From Dromaius novaehollandiae (taxonomy: Eukaryota > Chordata > Aves > Casuariiformes > Dromaiidae): a stretch of DNA of 64,000 bases. The stretch spans positions 44,181,835-44,245,834 of the forward strand of contig NC_088102.1 in assembly GCF_036370855.1 (NCBI RefSeq), written 5' to 3'. The notes below the pieces were generated by a model. It had not been told where the DNA came from. It ran no database searches and was given only the letters and a program-made list of their open reading frames with translations. Each line of letters starts with the position of its first letter. The stretch's first letter is position 1. The position numbers were made by a program, and so were the translations under genes. Shown here one piece after another: positions 37,200 through 50,600 of the stretch.

Positions 37200-40100
37200 A
37201 TTGAAACAGAAGTGGGATAAAATCTAGGAACTACATCAGGAAGAGGAGAGTTAGGATAGGAAGAGAGATGAAGACCTGAGGTCCAGTGGGAGGAGAGCTG
37301 CAAAGTGGCTCCCAAAAGAAGGCATACAGTGCTCGAAGAATTCTCTTCTGCCACTTGATTCATTGAGACCTATGGATGGGGCCTCTGGGCTGATAAGCAG
37401 CCAAAGCCAAATCGGAGGGTTCTGGAACAAGTTAGGGGAAGGGATAGGAGCAGGGCTGGGAAAGAAGTAAAACCTAGAGATCCAGTGCAAATGGCGCTGA
37501 GAAGGGCCTTCACAAGGAAGTACGGGCTGAAAAAAAATTATCGTGTGACAATGTTTGCTGCAATCACTTCCATGAAAGGCCTTCCCTAGGCTCAGCTCAC
37601 ACTAGACTTAGGGTTTCAGTTATAATTAGGGATAGGATTCAGACAGAGACAAAGTGTAGAGATGCAGGTGGACTGCCACTGAAGAGAAGATTCCAACAGA
37701 AGTGAAGCACAGCCAAGACATTTTTCCTGTGATGACAATTTCAAGTGCACCACATATGGGTGCCTTGCCTTAGCTCAGGCCACATGAGGGTTAGGGTTAG
37801 GGTTCAGAGAGAGAGAGAGAGTAGAGCTGCGGCTGGACTGCCCCTGAAAAGGGGCCTCCAAGGGAAGGAAAACCGTGCCAGAACAGCTGTCCTGGGGCAA
37901 CCTTCCAGGGCACCACTGAAGGCTCAAATCAACCTGAGTACGGATTAGGGTTAGTGTTAGGCTTAGGGTTAGGTTTCAGAGCGAGACAGAGCATAGAGCT
38001 GTGGCTGGACTGCCCCTGAAAAGGGGCCTCCAAGGGAAGGAAAACCCTGCCACAACAATCGTCCTGGGACTGCCTTTTCCAGGGCACCACTTAAGGGCAT
38101 CCTTGACTTGGCTCAGCACCAGCAAGGGTTAGGGTTCGGATTCAGAGAGAGACAGAGCACAGAGCTGCGGCTGGAGTGCCACTGAAAACGGTCCTCCAAT
38201 GGAAGGAAAATGCTGCCAGAACAATTGTCCTGCGACCCCCTTTTCCAGGGCACCACATATGGGTGTCCTCAACTTGGCTCAGCACCAGCAAGGGTTAGGG
38301 TTCAAAGAGAGAGAGTGCGTAGAACTGTGGCTGGAGTGCCTCTGAAAAGGGGCCTCCAAGGGAAGGAAAAACCTGCCACAACAATTGTCCAGGGACTACC
38401 TTTTCCAGGGCCCCACTTAAGGGCATCCTCGACTTGTCTGAGGACCAGCCAGGGTTAGGGTTAGGGTTCAGAGCGAGACAGAGCGTAGAGCTGTGGCTGG
38501 ACTGCCCCTGAAAAGGGGCTTCCAAGGGAAGGAAAACCCTCCTGTAACAACTGTCCTGTGACCTTTTCCAAGGGACCGTGTATGGGTGTCCTCGACTTGG
38601 CTGAGTGCCAACGAGGCTTAGGGTTAGGTTTCAGAGCTAGACAGAGCGTAGAGCTGTGGCTGGACTGCCATTGAAAAGGGGCCTCCAAGGGAAGGAAAAC
38701 CGTGCCAGAACAATTGTCCTGAGACAACCTTTTCCAAGGGACCACGTATGGGTGTCCTTGACTTGGCTGAGCGCCAGCGAGGAGTAGGGTTAGGCTTAGC
38801 GTTGAGAGAGAGACAGAGCACAGAGTTGCGGCTGGACTGCCCCTGAAAAGGGGCCTCCAAGGGAAGGAAAACCCTGCCAGAACAGTTGTCCTAGGACTGC
38901 CTTTTCCAGGGCACCACTCATGGCTGTCCTTGACTTGACTCAGCCCACACGAGGGTTAGTGTTAGGCATAGGGTTAGGGTTTAAAAAGAGACAGAGCGTA
39001 GAACTGTGGCTGGAGTGCCTCTGAAAAGGGGCCTCCAAGGGAAGGAAAACGCTGCCAGAACAATTGTCCTGCGATCTCTTTTTCCAGGGCACCACATATG
39101 GGTGTCCTCAACTTGGCTGAGTGCCAATGAGGGTTAGGGTTCAAAGAGAGAGACTGCGTACAGCTGCAGCTGGACTGCCCCTGAAAAGGGGCTTCCAAGG
39201 GAAGGAAAACCCTGCCAAAACAATGCTTCTGCAACAGCCTTTTCCAAGGGACCGTGTATGGGCATCCTCGACTTGGCTGAGTGCCAACAAGGCTTAGGGT
39301 TAGGTTTCAGAGCTAGACAGAGCCTAGAGCTGCAGCTGGAGTGCCACTGAAAAGGGGCCTCCAATGGAAGGAAAACGCTCCCCGAAAAATTGTCCTGGGA
39401 CAGCCTTTTCCAGGGCATCACCTAGGGGCATCCGTGACTTGGCTGAGCGCCAGGGAGGGTTAGGCTTAGGGTTAGGGTTGAGGGAGAGAGAGAGCGCAGA
39501 GCTGTGGCTGGACTGCCACTGAAAAGGGGCCTCCAAGACAAGGAAAACCCTGCCAAAACCATGCTCCTGCAACAACCTTCTCCACTCAGTCACCTAGGCG
39601 CGTCCTTGCCTTGGCTCAATGCCAGTTGCGGGTATGGCTAGGGTTAGGCTTCAGAGAGAGTCAGACTGCAGAGCTGGAGATAGACTGCCAGTGAAAAGGG
39701 GCCTCCAAGACAAGCAAATCCCTGCCAAAACCATGCTCCTGCAACAACCTTCTCCACAAAAACACCTCGGCACCTCCTGGCCTTGACTCAGCCACAATTA
39801 GGGTTAGGGTGTAGGGTTCAGAGAGAGACAGCGCATACAGCTGTGGCTGGACTGCCACTGAAAAGGGGCCTGCAAGACAAGGAAAACCCTGCCAATACCA
39901 TGCTCCTGCAACAACCTTCTCCACTCAGACACTTAGGCGCGTCCTGGCCTTGGCTCAGCCAGAATTAGGGTTAGGGTTCAGAGAGACAGTGCGTAGAGCT
40001 ATGGCTGGACTGCCCCTGAAAAGGGGCCTCCAAGGGAAGTGATAGGCTTCTAATACATTTTTCCTGGGACAGTGTTTGCTGCTCCAACTTGCATACGTGT

Positions 40101-40745
40101 CTGTACCGAGGCTCAGTCCGCACTACACTTAGTCTTTCTTTTAGCTTTGTGGCATGGGTGAATGTTCAGAGACAAAGTAGAGAGCAGTACCTGGACTGCC
40201 ATTGAAAACGGGCCTTTGCAGAGAGTGAAGTGCCCCAAATACAGTTTTCCCCTTACAACATTTTCCATTGTGCCATATATGGGTGTCCGTGTCTATGGAA
40301 CCACCAAATCTGAAGTTTTAAGGTAAGGTTTCACCTTTTGACAGACACAGTCTAGATGTCAAGTGGAAGTGGGGCTGCAAAGGAATTTCCAGAATAAGGT
40401 ATAGCATGCCAAAAGAATTCTCCTCTGATACGTTTTTGCTTTCGGCCCTGGTTGGGGGTCTTGGTCTAATGCTCAGGCAAAGCCAATCTTGAGGATTAAG
40501 GTTACAGTTAGGATTAGGGGTAGGGTTGGGACAGATAGAAAGCCTAAAGGTGCAGTAGAAGTGAGGCTGAGAAGAGGTTTCCAAGGAAAGTCCTGGGCTG
40601 CAGAAAAAAAGGTCCTCTGATCATGTTTTCTGCTTGGACTTGCATGGGTGTCCTTGGCTAAGGAAGAAGCAAAGCTTAAGTTTTGAGATAAGGGTTAGGG
40701 TTGTGACAGAGACAAAGCCTATAGATTGAGTGGGAAGTGACCTAA
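37200..40745 (+). repeat. Tandem satellite with embedded TTAGGG telomere hexamers
   Basis: About 20 head-to-tail units of roughly 160-185 bp (mode about 165). A core unit reads in order: one to four (T)TAGGG or TTAGGC/TTAGTG variant hexamers; a GA/CA-rich stretch; a segment ending GGCTGGACTGCC; TGAAAAGGGGCCTCCAAGG; GGAAAACCCTGCC; ACAATTGTCCTG; CTTTTCCAGGGCACCAC; GGGTGTCCT and GACTTGGCTGAG. Hexamer blocks start near 37788, 37945, 38124, 38291, 38451, 38617, 38787, 38952, 39129, 39293, 39457, 39638, 39797 and 39964. Outer units (37200-37780 and 40060-40745) are recognisably the same repeat but far more diverged, as expected of an array homogenised at its centre. I do not recognise a named satellite family. 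Confidence 0.9.
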
Positions 40746-41579: not shown

Positions 41580-42340
41580 TCGCGGTGGGGGGGAGAGGAG
41601 TGCCTGGCCCCAAGGAGCGGCCGCGGCCGGGGCGGGGCGCAGGGTGCGGGCCGGGGGCGGCGGCGCTGCCCGCGGCCCCGGCAGGCCCTGTCCCAAGATG
41701 GCGGCGCAGGCTGACGGGCCGGGGGAGGTGGGCGCTGCCCGCGGGGCGGGAATAAAGGGCGGCGGGCGGAGCCGCGGCGCTCTGGGGAAGCGAGGGGCCG
41801 GCGGCGGCGAGAGGAAGAGGAAGAGGAAGGCGCAGGTGAGCAGGGGGGAGGCGGCGTGCCGCGTCCGCAGGGGCGGCGCGGGGGCCGGCCGGGGGCGGGC
41901 GCGCGCCTGACGGCCTGGCCCGCCATGAACAGGGCGCAGCTGAAGCGGCCGGGGATCCTGCGGATGGCGCTGGGCGGCAGCGCTGCCGACCCGCTGCTGC
42001 CGGCCGAGGGCGGCGGGGGGCGTCCGGCGCCCTTCCTGCTGCGGGCCCTGCGCATCGCCGTCGTGGTCTGCCTCTACTGGTTCATCTCCATCACCATGGT
42101 CTTCCTCAACAAGTACCTGCTGGACAGCCCCTCGCTGCGCCTTGACGCCCCGCTCTTCGTCACCTTCTTTCAGTGTGCCCTCACGGCCGCCCTCTGCCTG
42201 GGCCTCAGCCTGGGGGCAGCCTGCGGGCCCCTTGGCTGCCCTGGCCTGCCCACCCTCCACCTTGACCCCAAGGTGTCCCGCAGCGTCCTGCCCCTCTCCG
42301 CCGTCTTCATCGGCATGATCACCTCCAACAACCTCTGCCT
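41580..42340. promoter_or_regulatory. SLC35C1: SLC35C1 CpG-island promoter
   Basis: GC content and CpG density rise abruptly near 41580 and stay high through the first coding exon. A GC box (GGGGCGGGGC) is at 41629-41638 and a YY1-type site (AAGATGGCGGC) at 41695-41705, the latter typical of sequence just downstream of a TATA-less start site. No TATA box is seen. A consensus donor, CAG|GTGAGC, at 41835/41836 could end an alternative first exon. Human SLC35C1 also has an isoform starting at the internal methionine equivalent to Met14 here. Confidence 0.75.
41695..41705 (+). promoter_or_regulatory. YY1 site with embedded upstream ATG
   Basis: AAGATGGCGGC matches the YY1 element. Its ATG (41698) opens a 70-codon upstream frame that stops at 41908-41910, 14 bases before the SLC35C1 start codon. 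Confidence 0.6.
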
Positions 42341-42471
42341 CAAGTATGTTGGTGTGGCGTTCTACAACGTGGGGCGCTCGCTCACCACCGTCTTCAATGT
42401 GCTGTTCTCCTACCTGCTCCTCAAGCAGACCACCTCGCTCTATGCCCTGCTGGCCTGCAGCATCATTATAG
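41925..42471 (+). CDS. SLC35C1: SLC35C1 coding exon 1 (residues 1-182)
   Basis: Starts at GCCATGA and ends at ATAG|GTGAGT (phase 1). It encodes the cytosolic N terminus and about five membrane helices, including the NVGRSLTT motif. Confidence 0.96.
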
Positions 42472-45108
42472 GTGAGTGGGGCTGGGAGGGTGCCTGGGCC
42501 ATGTGGTGTTGGGACTCCACAGCCCCTGGTGGTCCATGTGTACACATGCGGCACAGACCCACCATGCAGGCAGTCCTGCAACCTTAGAGAGCTGGAGGAG
42601 GGGTTTCTCCTGAGCTTGGGCAGGTAACTGGAGAGGAGCCTGATTAACCCAGCTTTGGGGTCCTGGTGTCTCACTCTGTGGGCTGTAGCGCACTGTTGGA
42701 CTGATTCATCCCATGGGGTGAATGCCTGTTGGAAGGCCCTGTTTGCTCTGCTATTGGCACTGCAGCATCTCAAGTCTCCAGCTGTTCAGTAGTATGTATT
42801 CCTACAAGACAGGGGAATGCTAAACTCCCACAGGCCTAATGAGAGTTTCCTAGCCTTTATTTGCAGATGTTGCTTAGCACCCCTTGGTGGTAGGCAAAGC
42901 CATGATAAGTGGGCTGTAGAAGTGTTAACCACCTTACGTGAGTCGTGATCCCTCAGGACACTCAGGCTTGGTAGTGCTACTCTGGCCTTAAGCTCAGACC
43001 TAGACACTAAGCTGACTCCCCCAAATACTGAGCCAAGCAGAACTGTTCTTCCTCTCTAGTCTCCCTCCACGTGCACAGCTGCTCCCTGATGAGACAGCAT
43101 AACTTTAGGACTCTTTTCCTTGCTCTACCTTGGACAATCTGGTTTGTGTGTCTGGAACATGTAGGTAACAGTCCTTCACAGAAGAAATAACTTTTCTGAC
43201 TGTTGCTTTCTTTTTACCTCCTGCCCCCCCCCCACCCTTGAAGGACTAAGCAACTATGAACTCTCCATTGAAGTTTAACTTAACTTGCTATTATTTTTTC
43301 ACAGAGGCCTTAAAACAACTTGTGGTTTTCTCTTGATTTTCAAATGATGGTTGCATTATTAGCTTTGATAACAATAACAGTATTTAATAACTGTAAGTGC
43401 CACTGGGACCATACAACAGAGCCTGCCAATTTGGACAAGCTGAATGCATATGATGAAGGTTAGCTAATCAGCCAAACTTACTACACAACCAGAGCTTCTG
43501 GTGTTATTTTAAGGAAGTAGGGTAGGGCACTGACTGGCTTAAAGGGCACAGCTTATTAGCCTTCCATTCCAAAGGCATCAGTAATGCTAAAAGCTACCTT
43601 CCACTTCATGGCCATTCAGATGCCAAGGATAGTGAATTTTTTATTTTAGTCCAGTTCCAGGTGGATATGTGTTCACTCCAGTGCTTAGACAAGCAGATGG
43701 ACTTGAATGAAAATGAGTTACAAGACTGTCCTCCCCACAGAAGGGGTGAACAGGAGGGCCTGTCTGACTAATGGCTACTATTTTCCCAAGTGATGCAGTC
43801 AGTTGGCTTCAGTGTTCCTTCAGAGGCTGATCTCTCCTGCTATGGTTTTCTTACAAGCTGGACAAGGGCAAGTCTCCATCGCTCAGCTCTGGAGAGACAG
43901 TCTGTAGTTCCTGTTTCAGAGGTGGTTAAAGAATGTACTGACTCTCAAAGAAGTTCAGCATGGTAAAGACATTGCACTCAGTTTCTGTCTTTTGATCTTT
44001 TTGGTTAAAGCTTCTTAGTATTACACCCGTGTGTTTTACTGTCTCTCCTTCTTCTGATTTCTCATCTTTTCTCTTTCTATAACAGTACAGCCAAGCCTGG
44101 GTGGGTTGTGGGGCCTGATTTCCTCCCCACCCTGTGGTAAGGGAGGAATGGTTATTGCTACCTGTGTGTCCTATTTGCTTCCTTGTCAATAAAAAAAATC
44201 ACATGATCTCCTTCTGAAAATGACCAGTACACAAAGAATGTCTTTAACTTTAGTTCATGGCTTTTTGGAATAATTGTTTCTAAACTCATGCTACCTGCTC
44301 ACTGTAGAAATCAATCCTCTAAGATTGAATGATTGTGCAGTAAAACACCTGCACTGCTAAAAGAAATCTTCCCAGAATGCTAGTCATCACACATTGTGGA
44401 TTAACATACTAGAAAGGGGAAACCCTTAAGCCTATCTCTGTTTATGATTGTGGTTTTTTCAGTACAAGGTAGATGATGAATCACTGGCTGTGTGTGTTTT
44501 AAGTCCTTCACCAGTTGTTTAAATTATTCCTGATTTGTTTGGTTGCAGGTGGCTTCTGGCTGGGTGTTGACCAGGAAGGAGCAGAGGGCACTCTGTCATG
44601 GGCTGGTATATTCTTTGGGATCTTAGCAAGCCTGTGTGTCTCACTCAATGCCATCTACACCAAGAAGGTGCTGCCTGTGGTGGATGGTAGCATCTGGCAC
44701 CTGACCTTCTACAACAACGTGAATGCTTGTGTCCTGTTCCTCCCCCTCATGATGCTGCTGGGCGAGTTCCATACCCTCTACCGCTTTGACAAGCTGGGCA
44801 GCCCCAGCTTTTGGGGCATGATGACCCTTGGTGGAGTGTTTGGCTTTGCCATTGGGTATGTGACCGGACTTCAGATTAAGTTCACTAGCCCACTCACCCA
44901 CAATGTCTCTGGGACAGCCAAGGCCTGTGCACAAACAGTGCTGGCTGTTGTCTATTTTGAGGAGACAAAGAGCTTCCTGTGGTGGATGAGTAACTTGATG
45001 GTTCTGGGAGGCTCCTTTGCCTATACGTGGGTGAAAGGGCTGGAGATGAGGAAGGCACAAGAGGAACCTACTCTCAGAAGCAGTGAAAAAAATGAGACTG
45101 GTGTGTAG
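41925..45108 (+). CDS. SLC35C1: GDP-fucose transporter 1 (complete, two coding exons)
   Basis: Exons 41925-42471 and 44549-45108 join in phase (Gly183 is split) into a 368-residue protein; the human protein has 364. It carries GDP-fucose from cytosol into the Golgi lumen in exchange for GMP, feeding fucosyltransferases that make selectin ligands and fucosylated Notch. About ten membrane helices are visible, roughly at residues 41-62, 77-98, 120-140, 143-165, 171-189, 200-219, 240-254, 271-291, 300-319 and 326-345. The segment [20 protein letters not shown] and the exon 2 stretch from [10 protein letters not shown] through [10 protein letters not shown] are essentially identical to the mammalian transporter. 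Arg151 and Thr312 match human Arg147 and Thr308, the positions mutated in leukocyte adhesion deficiency II. The ATG at 41925 is chosen because MNRA.LKR matches the human N terminus; Met14 is a conserved internal alternative. Confidence 0.97.
42472..44548 (+). other. SLC35C1: SLC35C1 intron (2.1 kb)
   Basis: GT donor GTGAGT and acceptor TTGCAG. It contains an isolated CACGTG (43068-43073) and a C-rich run near 43220-43240. No repeat family is recognised. Confidence 0.95.
44549..45108 (+). CDS. SLC35C1: SLC35C1 coding exon 2 (residues 183-368)
   Basis: Begins after TTGCAG and completes Gly183; stop TAG at 45106-45108. It encodes the last five helices and a charged cytosolic tail ending in Gly-Val, as in human. 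Confidence 0.96.
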
Positions 45109-45818: not shown

Positions 45819-45988
45819 TAGCGTGCCTTTGTTAAAGAGGAGCAAGACCTCTGCCTCTTTCAGGCTCAGAAGGGCAGGGAAAAGTTTCTGAAGCACTTGC
45901 TTCTAGCGTGCCTTTGTTAAAGAGGAGCAAGACCTCTGCCTCTTTCAGGCTCAGAAGGGCAGGGAAAAGTTTCTGAAGCACTTGCTTC
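45819..45988. repeat. Exact 85-bp tandem duplication
   Basis: Copies 45819-45903 and 45904-45988 are identical over all 85 bases, and similarity stops at both outer edges. It is either a very recent duplication or an assembly artefact. Confidence 0.97.
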
Positions 45989-46741: not shown

Positions 46742-47356
46742 AATGGGGATTGGTATCTTCGTCTGTCTCATTGAAGAGCTGTTCAGCAGCGCAAGGGAAT
46801 AGTGGCTCCTGAAGCAGGAACAAGGAAACTGAACAAGGAAAGGGCAGATGTGGGTGACTTCAGATAGAAAATTTGCTTAAGACGGCGAGAAACAAATACT
46901 GTACTCTTATATTTCTGCCTGTGTGATGAGGCAGGCTTTGTTTTGACTAGGCAGGCTGCTGGTTTGACTTGCTTAGGGCAGCACAGCCCCTACGTGCTCC
47001 TGAGCGTGCGGGTGGGCCCTGCCTGCGCAACGCTCTTGCGACGGGGCTGGGGGGGGCGACCGGCTCCTGCGGCCGCCTCACGCCCCCGGCTCCGCGGGGC
47101 CACCGCGGGGGGAGCGCACTGACAGCGGGCACTGCGGCCCGGCGGGATGAGCAGCCCCGGGGCGCCGACGGGCTGCCGCGCCGCGCCCGCTGGGGGGCGG
47201 CAGAGCGCAGCTCCGGAGGTTGGTGGGGCCACCGGCGCGGGCAGCGCCCCTTTAAGCGCTAGCCTCGCCCTCCGCCGCGATCTTCCCGTGGTGGCGGCGC
47301 TGCCGCGCACGCGGCGTCCCGCGCCGGGCGGCAGCAGCCAGTGAGCGCGGCGGGGG

Positions 47357-47378
47357 CGGCGGCGGCGGCAGCGGCAGC

Positions 47379-47413
<35 letters not shown>

Positions 47414-47418
47414 CAGCG
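47357..47418 (+). repeat. CRY2: CRY2 5' GGC/GCA trinucleotide repeat
   Basis: A GGC run passes into GCA/CAG, with ten uninterrupted CAG units at 47381-47410, then TAG and CAG, ending directly at the start codon. In the CRY2 frame it reads as an alanine run (GCG, GCA) with one valine (GTA) and no stop. Confidence 0.9.
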
Positions 47419-47606
47419 ATGGCGGCTGCGGCCTCGGCGACGCCGCGCGGCCCGTGCCGCTCCGTGCACTGGTTCCGCCGCGGGCTGCGGCTCCACGACA
47501 ACCCGGCGCTGCAGGCGGCGCTGCGGGACGCCGTGGCCCTGCGCTGCATCTACATCCTGGACCCCTGGTTCGCCGCCTCCTCCGCCGTGGGCATCAACCG
47601 CTGGCG
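47419..47606 (+). CDS. CRY2: CRY2 exon 1 coding part (residues 1-62)
   Basis: Ends TGGCG|GTGAGC in phase 2. It encodes the alanine-rich N terminus and the first strand-helix of the photolyase fold. Confidence 0.95.
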
Positions 47607-50600
47607 GTGAGCGGGCCTGTCGCGACAGCGGGGGGTCGGGGCGGGGGGCCGCGCTCCCGCCCCCTCCGGTAACGGGGCAGCGCCCAGCCGCCCCCGTCGC
47701 GCGCCTCCCCCTCCTCTGCGAGGACGGGCGCCGCGCCTGCGGGTTCCGGGCCTTTCTGGAACCCCCGGCGGGATGGCGGAGGAGCCGTGAGCGCCCGGGA
47801 ACCGCCACGGTGGGGGTGCTCGGGCTGCCGCGGCCTGTGCTGCCGCGTACGAAGCAGGCTTTCTCACGGGCAGCAGCAGGCGGGAATGCCCTTCGCGTGC
47901 TGCCGTTGTCGCTAGCCCCGTCCTCATGTAGAAGAGCGAAAACTGTAACTAACTAGCACCCTTAGCTGTTAGGCAAAAATGTGCTGAGTAAATACGTTAT
48001 TTGTATTTATTGGAGGCTCCATTGTTTCCCAGGGGAAGCTTGGCTTCATTTTGCTCTTTTTTTCCCTGCAATTATTGGTTTTCTCAGGTCAGTGCTCTAA
48101 AGGCAAGTGTTTGTGTTTAACTTAACTTCCAGAAATTTATCATGTTGAAAAATTATTTATCACTTAACTGCGCAGCATATGGGTGAGCCAAATAATAGCA
48201 GCCCTTGCCTAACTTCCAGAACACCCTGGAGGGAAAGATGGTGTTGCTATTTAACAGATATATACTGAGCGGGGGGTGGAGGAGTGGTTTGTTCTGATGA
48301 TCCAGACCTGATTCTGGCTCTGCTGTGCTGCTTGGCACGTCTTTCCTTGAAACCTTAGTCCCTTTCTCCTTCAAGATGTGCACAGGGGGCTGCGTCTGTC
48401 ACAAAGCTTGCAATTCACATTATGAGCCATGCAGTTGAACAGAGAGGAAGTACCCAGATTGCAAGACAATAGCTCAGCTTTCCTATTAACTGTGCATGGT
48501 CTTCAGTTGATACTGCAGATACATCTTACAGGTCAGGCTGCAGAGCGGACATATAGGGGAGGAGGAGAGGCTGCAGACTCCATTAGGAAGGGTTCTGGGT
48601 TTGCAAGCACTGCTACATACCCTTGCAGAGATTAAAGTTTAGTTAAGGCTGGCATCATTCACAGTTATGGACAAAACAAAGGAAGCCAAGTTATAATGTA
48701 GATGGGGTTACATTGTGGTATGTCTGTGAAAGCAAAGATGATATGCCTGAAGTTGCACAGCACGATGTGAGATCAATAAGACACACTGTCAATAAAGTGC
48801 TTTTTGACAGCTTTGGGGTGGGAGGGAGTAGATAAATATCTTAGCATGCTCTCATCTGCATGGTGGAAGATAAATTTCAGTTCTGTTTGTAACTGTTCTA
48901 AGTATGGCTGTCATGTGGAGAGAGCAGCTGACAGGGGAGTATCAGCTCGAAGTGAGAACACAGGAAGGGCAGGGATTGCAAGAAGAAAATCCTGGAGAGC
49001 ACTCTCATTTGGCTAAGCAGAACATGCATGTGAATGGCTGGGGACTGGCTGGTGCTGCAAAGTCTTAACAGTTAGTAGACAGACCAGGCATGAATAAGAA
49101 CTCTTATTTTCTACATTTCTAGTCCTTCACCTTTTGTTTGGAGAACTGATCAGTGGTGCAGGTTAATTGGATTTCCATGTAAATCCTCTTCATTTGTCTT
49201 CTAGCTGTACCCAGTCTGACTGACCTGAACTGCTCTTGTTTATTCTCTGCAGATTCCTACTCCAATCCCTGGAAGACCTGGACAACAGTTTAAGGAAACT
49301 CAGCTCCCGCTTGTTTGTGGTACGAGGGCAGCCAACAGATGTCTTCCCAAGACTCTTTAAAGTAAGAGAATAAACTAATTTTCTGGAGCATAGTCAGGCA
49401 AAACTAATGTCCTGCTGTAAATGATATCCTTGTTTTCACTTCCTAATATCTGGTAGTTGTTGGAGATCCCTGGCTTCTCTTTAACTTCGCTACTATCCAT
49501 AGTGGCCAGCTTAGGAGCCAGATACGCTCTTCACTCAGATTTCCACAGAAATTTAGTAGTAGGGAATAACCTAATATCAGAATGCTTGAGCTTTGCTTTT
49601 GGGACAGTGGCCTTCGCCTTTGTTTCTGCAAGTCAGGTTTCACTGGGTTGCACTGTAACCCACTGATTCCCCTGTATTGAGAGTTTCTTTTCTACTGGAA
49701 ATTTTCTGTGTGCTGCTTCTACTCAAGAACACTGCCAGGTCTATACACCTTTACAGACATCTGAGAAAGCGTATTGATCTACACCTGAGCTGCAAATAAG
49801 GCTTTGTGTTATAATGTGAGAATTCAGAAGCTTTTATGTTAATTGTTCTTCCTTTCCTGCTTCCATTCAAGCCCTGCAGGTTTCTTGTTGCTGTTGTTTT
49901 GTTTTATTTTGCTGTTTTTTGGTCGGCTCAGTAGCAGAATGTAGCATGGGTCCAGGTATCTTGAAGATGTGCTGTTTAGGACTGTGGAATATGCCTTGGA
50001 CCTCAGGGCCAAAGATGGATTAGTAGGATACATCTCTGAGGTGATATATCAGTGCTGCAGATTGGGAGAGAGAGGGCTGGCAAGAGGATCTCCTTGAATG
50101 TCAAGATTCCTCAAGCAGTAAAAGTCTCTGACTCATTCCTCTCTGTCCTGTTCTCAGATTATACTCATTGTTGTCTTTGAAGCCTTCTGACAGCTATTTT
50201 GCTAGAGTGACAAAGCTAAATGAAGAGAATATGGTTCACAATACTCTTATGGGTTGGATTTGTTGTGGAGAGTGTCTTACGTTATCTTACCTTATCTTAT
50301 GTTTCATAGAACTGGTGTTCCCAAAGCCTGCTGTAGACCAGCTTCTGAGAGGGAGAGGTATACTTGGATCTATATGCTCCTGCAGTATACAGTCACAATA
50401 CAATTTTCTCTGGAGAGGGGCGGTAAGTGGGAAGGGAATCAGATGATGCAGGTCAGAAGGTGCAACACTATTTATTTTGGCTCCTACGTGTTAACAAAGG
50501 ACACAAATAACCTATTTACTGCTCTTAGCCTTTCTACAATCTGGGTTATTTTTATCTTTTGATCTGTAAATAAGTTCTGGCTATTTGTGGTCCATGCCCT

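Follow-up and report, generated by a model that had tools for sequence, protein, structure and literature searches.

How does a satellite array carrying telomere hexamers come to lie deep inside a macrochromosome? The window analysed here, a 64,000-nucleotide stretch of emu chromosome 5 (C5:44181835-44245834), contains such an array 44 Mb from one end of the chromosome and 33.7 Mb from the other. A sequence-only reading of the window had described about 20 tandem units of 160-185 bp, and indeed we found 20 head-to-tail units on the + strand, spaced 159-190 bp apart, between positions 37265 and 40717. A profile seeded with one core unit recovered 20 units from 37298 to 40701, with 20/20 on the + strand, and a second profile built from decayed units likewise recovered 20 and widened the array to the limits just given. 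The period analysis that had been proposed as a check gave the same picture, as TRF returned a 172-bp period over 37626-40039 (14.5 copies, 76% matches, score 2031). Judged by eye, the sequence ahead of SLC35C1 turns GC-rich near 41.57 kb, which makes the earlier estimate that the array stops ~0.85 kb short of a CpG island at that gene about right.

The hexamers belong to the array rather than to the region. Between 37200 and 40745, TTAGGG occurs 23 times on the + strand and not once on the - strand, compared to a mean of 1.6 and a maximum of 5 in 500 dinucleotide shuffles. Across the whole 64-kb window, 46 occurrences stand against a mean of 36, and 6 of 100 shuffles reach 46; this is barely above chance, and the hexamer excess is therefore that of the array. 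When TTAGGG, TTAGGC and TTAGGT were tallied in the 3' part of each unit, all ten core units carried one to four of them, just as had been claimed for hexamers and close variants, while the edge units had few or none, and two units of the right edge (39980 and 40168) had none of the three in that part. The longest run in the window is two adjacent perfect hexamers, and the hexamers recur with each ~165-bp core unit, so the array does not have the structure of a short interstitial telomeric sequence (s-ITS). The sequence-only reading had likewise held that this was not a plain interstitial telomere tract, and our data agree that the hexamers are components of a longer satellite unit. The units are arranged head to tail, homogenised and found at several loci, as in a satellite DNA family, and the core units may be likened in kind to satellites with embedded telomere motifs such as PaB6. 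The array is CpG-poor (observed/expected 0.24). A motif scan of the array found no four-run G-quadruplex motif, and a G-quadruplex array was rejected on this basis; an RNA gene was dropped because no Rfam family reached the gathering threshold in 36-42 kb. The window array is also related to subtelomeric DNA.

Alignment of 486 unit sequences, some of them from overlapping loci, indicated that the window array is a mosaic of decayed old edges, a core whose lineage today occupies sites near chromosome ends, and three units of the lineage that makes up a giant array farther along chromosome 5. Scores in the core-unit profile grade along the array, from 17, 45 and 107 bits through 112 to 160 bits and then down to 98, 68, 37 and 47 bits. 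At the left edge (37265-37642, + strand), two decayed old-type units score 17 and 45 bits in this profile and, with the decayed-unit profile, 35 and 120 bits; the sequences behind that profile include the second of these units (37469; mean identity 0.55 to the other window units) and the last three units of the right edge. A transitional, partly decayed unit follows (37643-37806, + strand; 107 bits), its best identity (0.72) being to a unit on contig C29. The ten core units (37807-39483, + strand) are 0.80-0.91 identical to the subtelomeric majority sequence and are intermixed in the tree with units from subtelomeres and microchromosome contigs. The three units of the giant-array lineage (39484-39979, + strand) fall in a clade with support of 0.95: unit 39484 is like the A unit of the giant array (best identity 0.975), unit 39654 is like the B unit (0.988), and unit 39821 reaches 0.911 and branches off at the base of the 55 giant units (A, B and third type) included in the tree. 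Two decayed units from the edge of the giant array fall outside the clade formed by 39821 and these 55. The right edge (39980-40717, + strand) comprises an intermediate unit at 39980 (98 bits) and three old-type units (68, 37 and 47 bits) that score 137-159 bits in the decayed-unit profile built from them. The outermost edge units show a mean identity of no more than 0.53-0.58 to each group; unit 40532 finds its nearest kin (0.70) in a decayed unit that borders the giant array on the left.

Searching the 1.47-Gb genome (271 contigs), as the sequence-only reading had recommended, showed the family to be multi-locus and the window copy not to be private. An 18-base word from the core unit has 54 exact sites and none for the reversed control: 6 in the window, 3 near the right end of C5, 5 on C6, 7 on C8, 5 on C9, 6 on C10, 8 on C29, 6 on C182, 6 on C207 and 2 on C234, with no exact site on any further contig. 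A second word, common to the unit and the giant array, has at least 1000 forward sites and 31 reverse sites (control 0). The five macrochromosomal loci outside the window (C5 end, C6, C8, C9 and C10) are separated from a contig end by 0.54, 2.02, 1.29, 1.14 and 1.08 Mb, and in 5/5 the G-rich TTAGGG strand runs toward that end. Five random positions would all fall within 2.03 Mb of an end with a probability of ~6e-6 if they were independent; the five loci are copies of one duplicated block and thus represent fewer events. The orientation on C182 carries no information, as this is a short, unplaced contig. At the level of the family, then, this is a subtelomeric telomere-like repeat, and the window copy itself is interior. 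Telomere repeat is present at the start of contigs C6 and C8, and none was seen in the last bases of C5, C9 and C10. The right ends of C9 and C10 (L069, L070) consist of the same overlapping sequence instead of telomere and are probably incomplete in the assembly, and C5:1-250 (L071) reads N. The first 1,200 bases of C6 (L058) open with 895 bp of (GTTAAA)n before a normal (TAACCC)n telomere, which is perhaps a base-calling artefact of telomere reads or a variant repeat.

Near chromosome ends, the units are part of a larger module. In the fetched near-end loci, a 31-bp minisatellite (1.3-1.5 kb) is followed, toward the chromosome end, by the telomere-hexamer units, and the modules on C5, C6, C8, C9 and C10 all lie 0.5-2.0 Mb from the contig end. 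The number of units varies from 13 at the C5 end and 17-18 on C9, C10 and C182 to 28 on C6 and ~34 on C8. Among the matches listed for these 10-kb loci, the array and ~2-3 kb on either side are common to the near-end modules at 90-98%; most of the 10 kb being shared in this way, the modules resemble duplicons, and a mobile element with an internal array was rejected. In the modules that were fetched from subtelomeres and microchromosomes, full-length units score 122-168 bits, the 14 matches under 120 bits are all partial units or cut by the end of a locus, and the decayed-unit profile found no additional units in the module flanks. Of the 18 sites of a 16-base word from the 31-bp minisatellite, 16 fall at six loci (C5 end, C6, C8, C9, C10 and C182), and the remaining two are at C8:8.1 Mb and where C33 begins; the window has none. 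Telomeric RNA promoters are CpG islands, and the 31-bp minisatellite differs from them in being CpG-poor (observed/expected 0.16-0.30 in the four stretches measured); a TERRA-type promoter was rejected on this ground.

Related modules occur on C29, C182, C207 and C234, and those fetched from C29, C207 and C234 carry an extra degenerate hexamer tract of ~300 bp. On these last three contigs, the modules (L033-L040) lie ~48 kb or twice that apart in both orientations, which suggests a macro-repeat of ~48 kb. On C207 (L038:4785-10000), a single family unit gives way directly to a long tandem array whose 65-bp repeat shows a higher-order period of 194 bp. On the telomere side of the modules on C6 (L024:2-1771) and C8 (L026:6-596), we also observed a second minisatellite of 31-bp period that is CpG-rich, with observed/expected ratios over 500 bp of up to 1.8 and 1.5, respectively, in a module that is otherwise CpG-poor.

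To the right of the window array, at a distance of 0.47 Mb, the giant array begins at about C5:44,690,433; it is built of 350-357-bp dimers of A and B units together with a third unit type. It was present at 13/13 places sampled between 44.690 and 45.050 Mb and absent from samples at 44.660 Mb, 45.053-45.059 Mb and 45.06-45.09 Mb. A decayed unit at C5:45,051,500 marks its right edge (alignment score 74, compared to a maximum of 31 in 30 shuffles), and at its left edge the outermost sampled units are full-length but weak (63 and 98 bits). The array would thus span ~360 kb, with continuity between samples assumed. TTAGGG density is 12.5 per kb in one 9.9-kb stretch, and extrapolation from that stretch would give a total of some 4,500 hexamers. 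Only the ~360-kb size, the dimer structure and the apparent chromosome specificity fit a centromeric satellite; it is a tentative and rather doubtful idea that this array could be the working, telomere-derived centromere of chromosome 5, with the window keeping its founding A-B pair beside its ancestors and subtelomeric cousins. If true, a telomere-repeat-derived satellite would have become a centromere while its founders were kept 0.47 Mb away.

Both chromosome 5 arrays are bordered by genes in one order, all on the + strand: an SLC35C1-like gene, CRY2, a midkine-like exon, the giant array and prothrombin. The SLC35C1-like gene (41931-45108, the limits of two exon-bearing open frames) matches the Pfam family TPT at 37 and 36 bits, has no PDB match for its frames, and is presumably SLC35C1, as judged from its sequence. 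The first coding exon of CRY2 (47422-47610, start approximate) matches cryptochrome-2 chains at E 3.1e-24 and cryptochrome-1 at 8.1e-22. The midkine-like exon (C5:44,654,045) has midkines as its best PDB matches, with pleiotrophin slightly weaker, and the prothrombin Gla exon (C5:45,278,229) matches prothrombins best and factor X next. Human 11p11.2 has SLC35C1, CRY2, midkine and prothrombin in the same order and on the same strand. ATG13, sought as an extra synteny marker, gave no match, and likewise none in the controls, so that this negative carries no weight. Given this gene order, both arrays appear to have been inserted, or to have expanded, between conserved neighbours. Among the matches listed, the flanks of the window array had no match in 20 fetched 10-kb loci other than a GC-rich triplet run. 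A perfect two-copy tandem duplication of 85 bp lies between the SLC35C1-like gene and CRY2 (45819-45988), and CRY2 opens with a run of GCN triplets (47347-47417) that would read as poly-alanine or poly-serine depending on frame.

To ask which locus stands nearest to the source, we turned to a tree of 115 units, in which the window is the locus that holds all lineages. In five resampled midpoint-rooted trees, parsimony made the window the cheapest root state in 5/5, at 11-12 changes compared to 13-14 for the alternatives and ~37 for shuffled labels; the lead over the next state is 1-2 changes, midpoint rooting favours long decayed branches as root, microchromosome units were pooled with subtelomeric ones, and all units come from one genome. 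Overall, we lean, without strong confidence, toward chromosome 5 as the older home of the family and the window trio as founder-like.

With modest confidence, we favour reading the window array as a reservoir or relic: an old interstitial satellite with the same ancestry as the subtelomeric and giant arrays. It would be a long-resident interstitial copy of a single family whose ~165-bp unit carries telomere hexamers. Its middle may have grown and homogenised by unequal exchange and gene conversion, leaving decayed units at both edges, and two lineages still present in it would have amplified elsewhere. One would have given rise to the unit arrays of the subtelomeric module on several chromosomes, having probably moved and then been held in telomere orientation by recombination between hexamers and exchange between ends; the other, an A-B unit pair, may have become the repeat of the giant array. 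A block transfer that preserved unit order was rejected: the window core shares no unit order with the modules, and no register stands out in nine comparisons (best register z 1.2-2.2, compared to 2.7-5.1 among the modules themselves), so that no transferred block can be identified.

The strongest competitor concerns the trio alone. The three giant-type units (39484-39979) may have been copied back from the giant array by conversion or insertion rather than being its founders, a possibility that we take seriously and consider less probable than a founding role. In its favour, unit A is 97.5% and unit B 98.8% identical to giant units, and the best match of every other window unit is <=0.91. The basal position of unit 39821 speaks against this, as does unit B, which departs from the majority sequence of giant-array B units at two sites and has the outgroup base at both. 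The signal of unit A is mixed: at the 11 columns where it differs from the giant array, the subtelomeric outgroup is matched by the window at 3 and by the giant array at 4. That of unit 39821 tends in the opposite direction: at the 21 columns separating it from the third giant type, the outgroup is matched by the window at 7 and by the giant array at 10.

A second alternative reverses the direction of spread. The family may have been born at chromosome ends, with a piece captured at the interior site, for instance during break repair, that later seeded the giant array. The sequence-only reading had raised a subtelomeric insertion, and it is possible: telomere hexamers are built into the unit, the window core falls in the subtelomeric lineage, all five macrochromosomal modules are at most 2.03 Mb away from a contig end and have the G-strand facing outward, and two of the module-bearing ends (C6 and C8) show telomere repeat. 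Against it, the oldest-looking, decayed units are on chromosome 5, and the fetched modules hold no decayed full-length units, which means that transfer may have run from chromosome 5 outward; in addition, the module units of the tree exclude the giant-array lineage, and the minisatellite word found with the near-end modules is absent from the window. Subtelomeres are hot spots of gene conversion, which could have wiped old units from the modules, so their lack of decayed units is not decisive. We regard an origin at chromosome ends as rather unlikely, and infer that chromosome 5 is nearer to the source.

Whether the array does anything for its host is a separate matter. YTAGGGTTR, which we take to be a TRF-type site, occurs 12 times in this 3.5-kb array compared to a shuffle mean of 0.07 and a maximum of 1. 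The array might be a selected TRF1/TRF2 platform or a chromatin boundary upstream of SLC35C1, and some interstitial tracts are described as bound by TRF1/TRF2 in human cells (PMC6410037). Such a role is improbable: edge units have few or no hexamers, no tract is longer than the hexamer pair described above, and nothing shows constraint. At this locus, the array most likely has no selected role other than providing a dozen or so potential TRF-type sites. Least probable is the scar of a fusion or inversion, an ancestral chromosome end trapped inside chromosome 5 as the earlier suggestion of an old fusion would have it, which would suit telomere-type repeats so deep in a macrochromosome and a second, larger array nearby but was rejected because the four flanking genes keep one order and strand across both arrays, as in human 11p11.2, and 20/20 units run in one direction rather than head to head; moreover, among the matches listed, no subtelomeric flank sequence adjoins the array.

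Accounts of how satellites travel among chromosome ends, arms and perhaps centromeres usually have just the end products to go on. The emu genome still contains an intermediate: within the 3.5-kb window array, decayed ancestors lie alongside the subtelomeric lineage and a pair of units that look like founders of a giant, chromosome-specific array. The preferred reading of the window array as an old interstitial reservoir or relic may show how chromosome-end repeats and giant satellites beget one another.

Human TAR1 is a telomere-associated repeat of a kind comparable to the subtelomeric module. Among the titles and opening lines of abstracts listed in our searches, none describes a vertebrate satellite of this make-up, nor did these searches turn up a vertebrate family with subtelomeric, relic-interstitial and giant-array forms plus intermediates. 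A search of papers, exclusive of supplements and preprints, for four short words (two from the unit and two from the 31-bp repeat) found, among the matches listed, one word once, in a grape paper, which leaves uncontradicted the suggestion that the family is undescribed. Subtelomeric and heterochromatic telomere-like blocks are well known, and subtelomeric ITS have like modules: degenerate TTAGGG beside short minisatellites, in duplicated near-end DNA with the G-strand outward (PMC6410037). Unlike subtelomeric ITS and TAR1, the emu family has its hexamers inside a ~165-bp satellite unit, in modules 0.5-2 Mb from the end. Emu satellites have been described as GC-rich, with a shortest unit of 31 bp and with DnoSat05 hybridising to the telomeric regions of all chromosomes (PMC11036779); the likeness of these satellites to our family is one of description only, and a lead. 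Among other birds, published work reports one 191-bp repeat on 38/40 chromosomes of the great bustard (PMC10354230), a non-repetitive centromere on chicken chromosome 5 (PMC3925796), and chromosome-specific tandem repeats with layered expansion at the centromeres of sub/metacentric chicken macrochromosomes, some with (TTAGGG)n in their cores (PMC9974502). The giant array, known here from its sequence, shares tandem repeats and apparent chromosome specificity with these chicken centromere repeats (PMC9974502), and layered expansion and TTAGGG content are further points of likeness. Satellites with built-in telomere motifs are already known: PaB6 of Prospero autumnale has a 249-bp unit with several intact vertebrate-type telomere repeats and is differentially amplified (PMC4273535). 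PaB6 is a plant repeat and pericentromeric, and it is by that description, rather than by sequence, that the emu family can be likened to it (PMC4273535).
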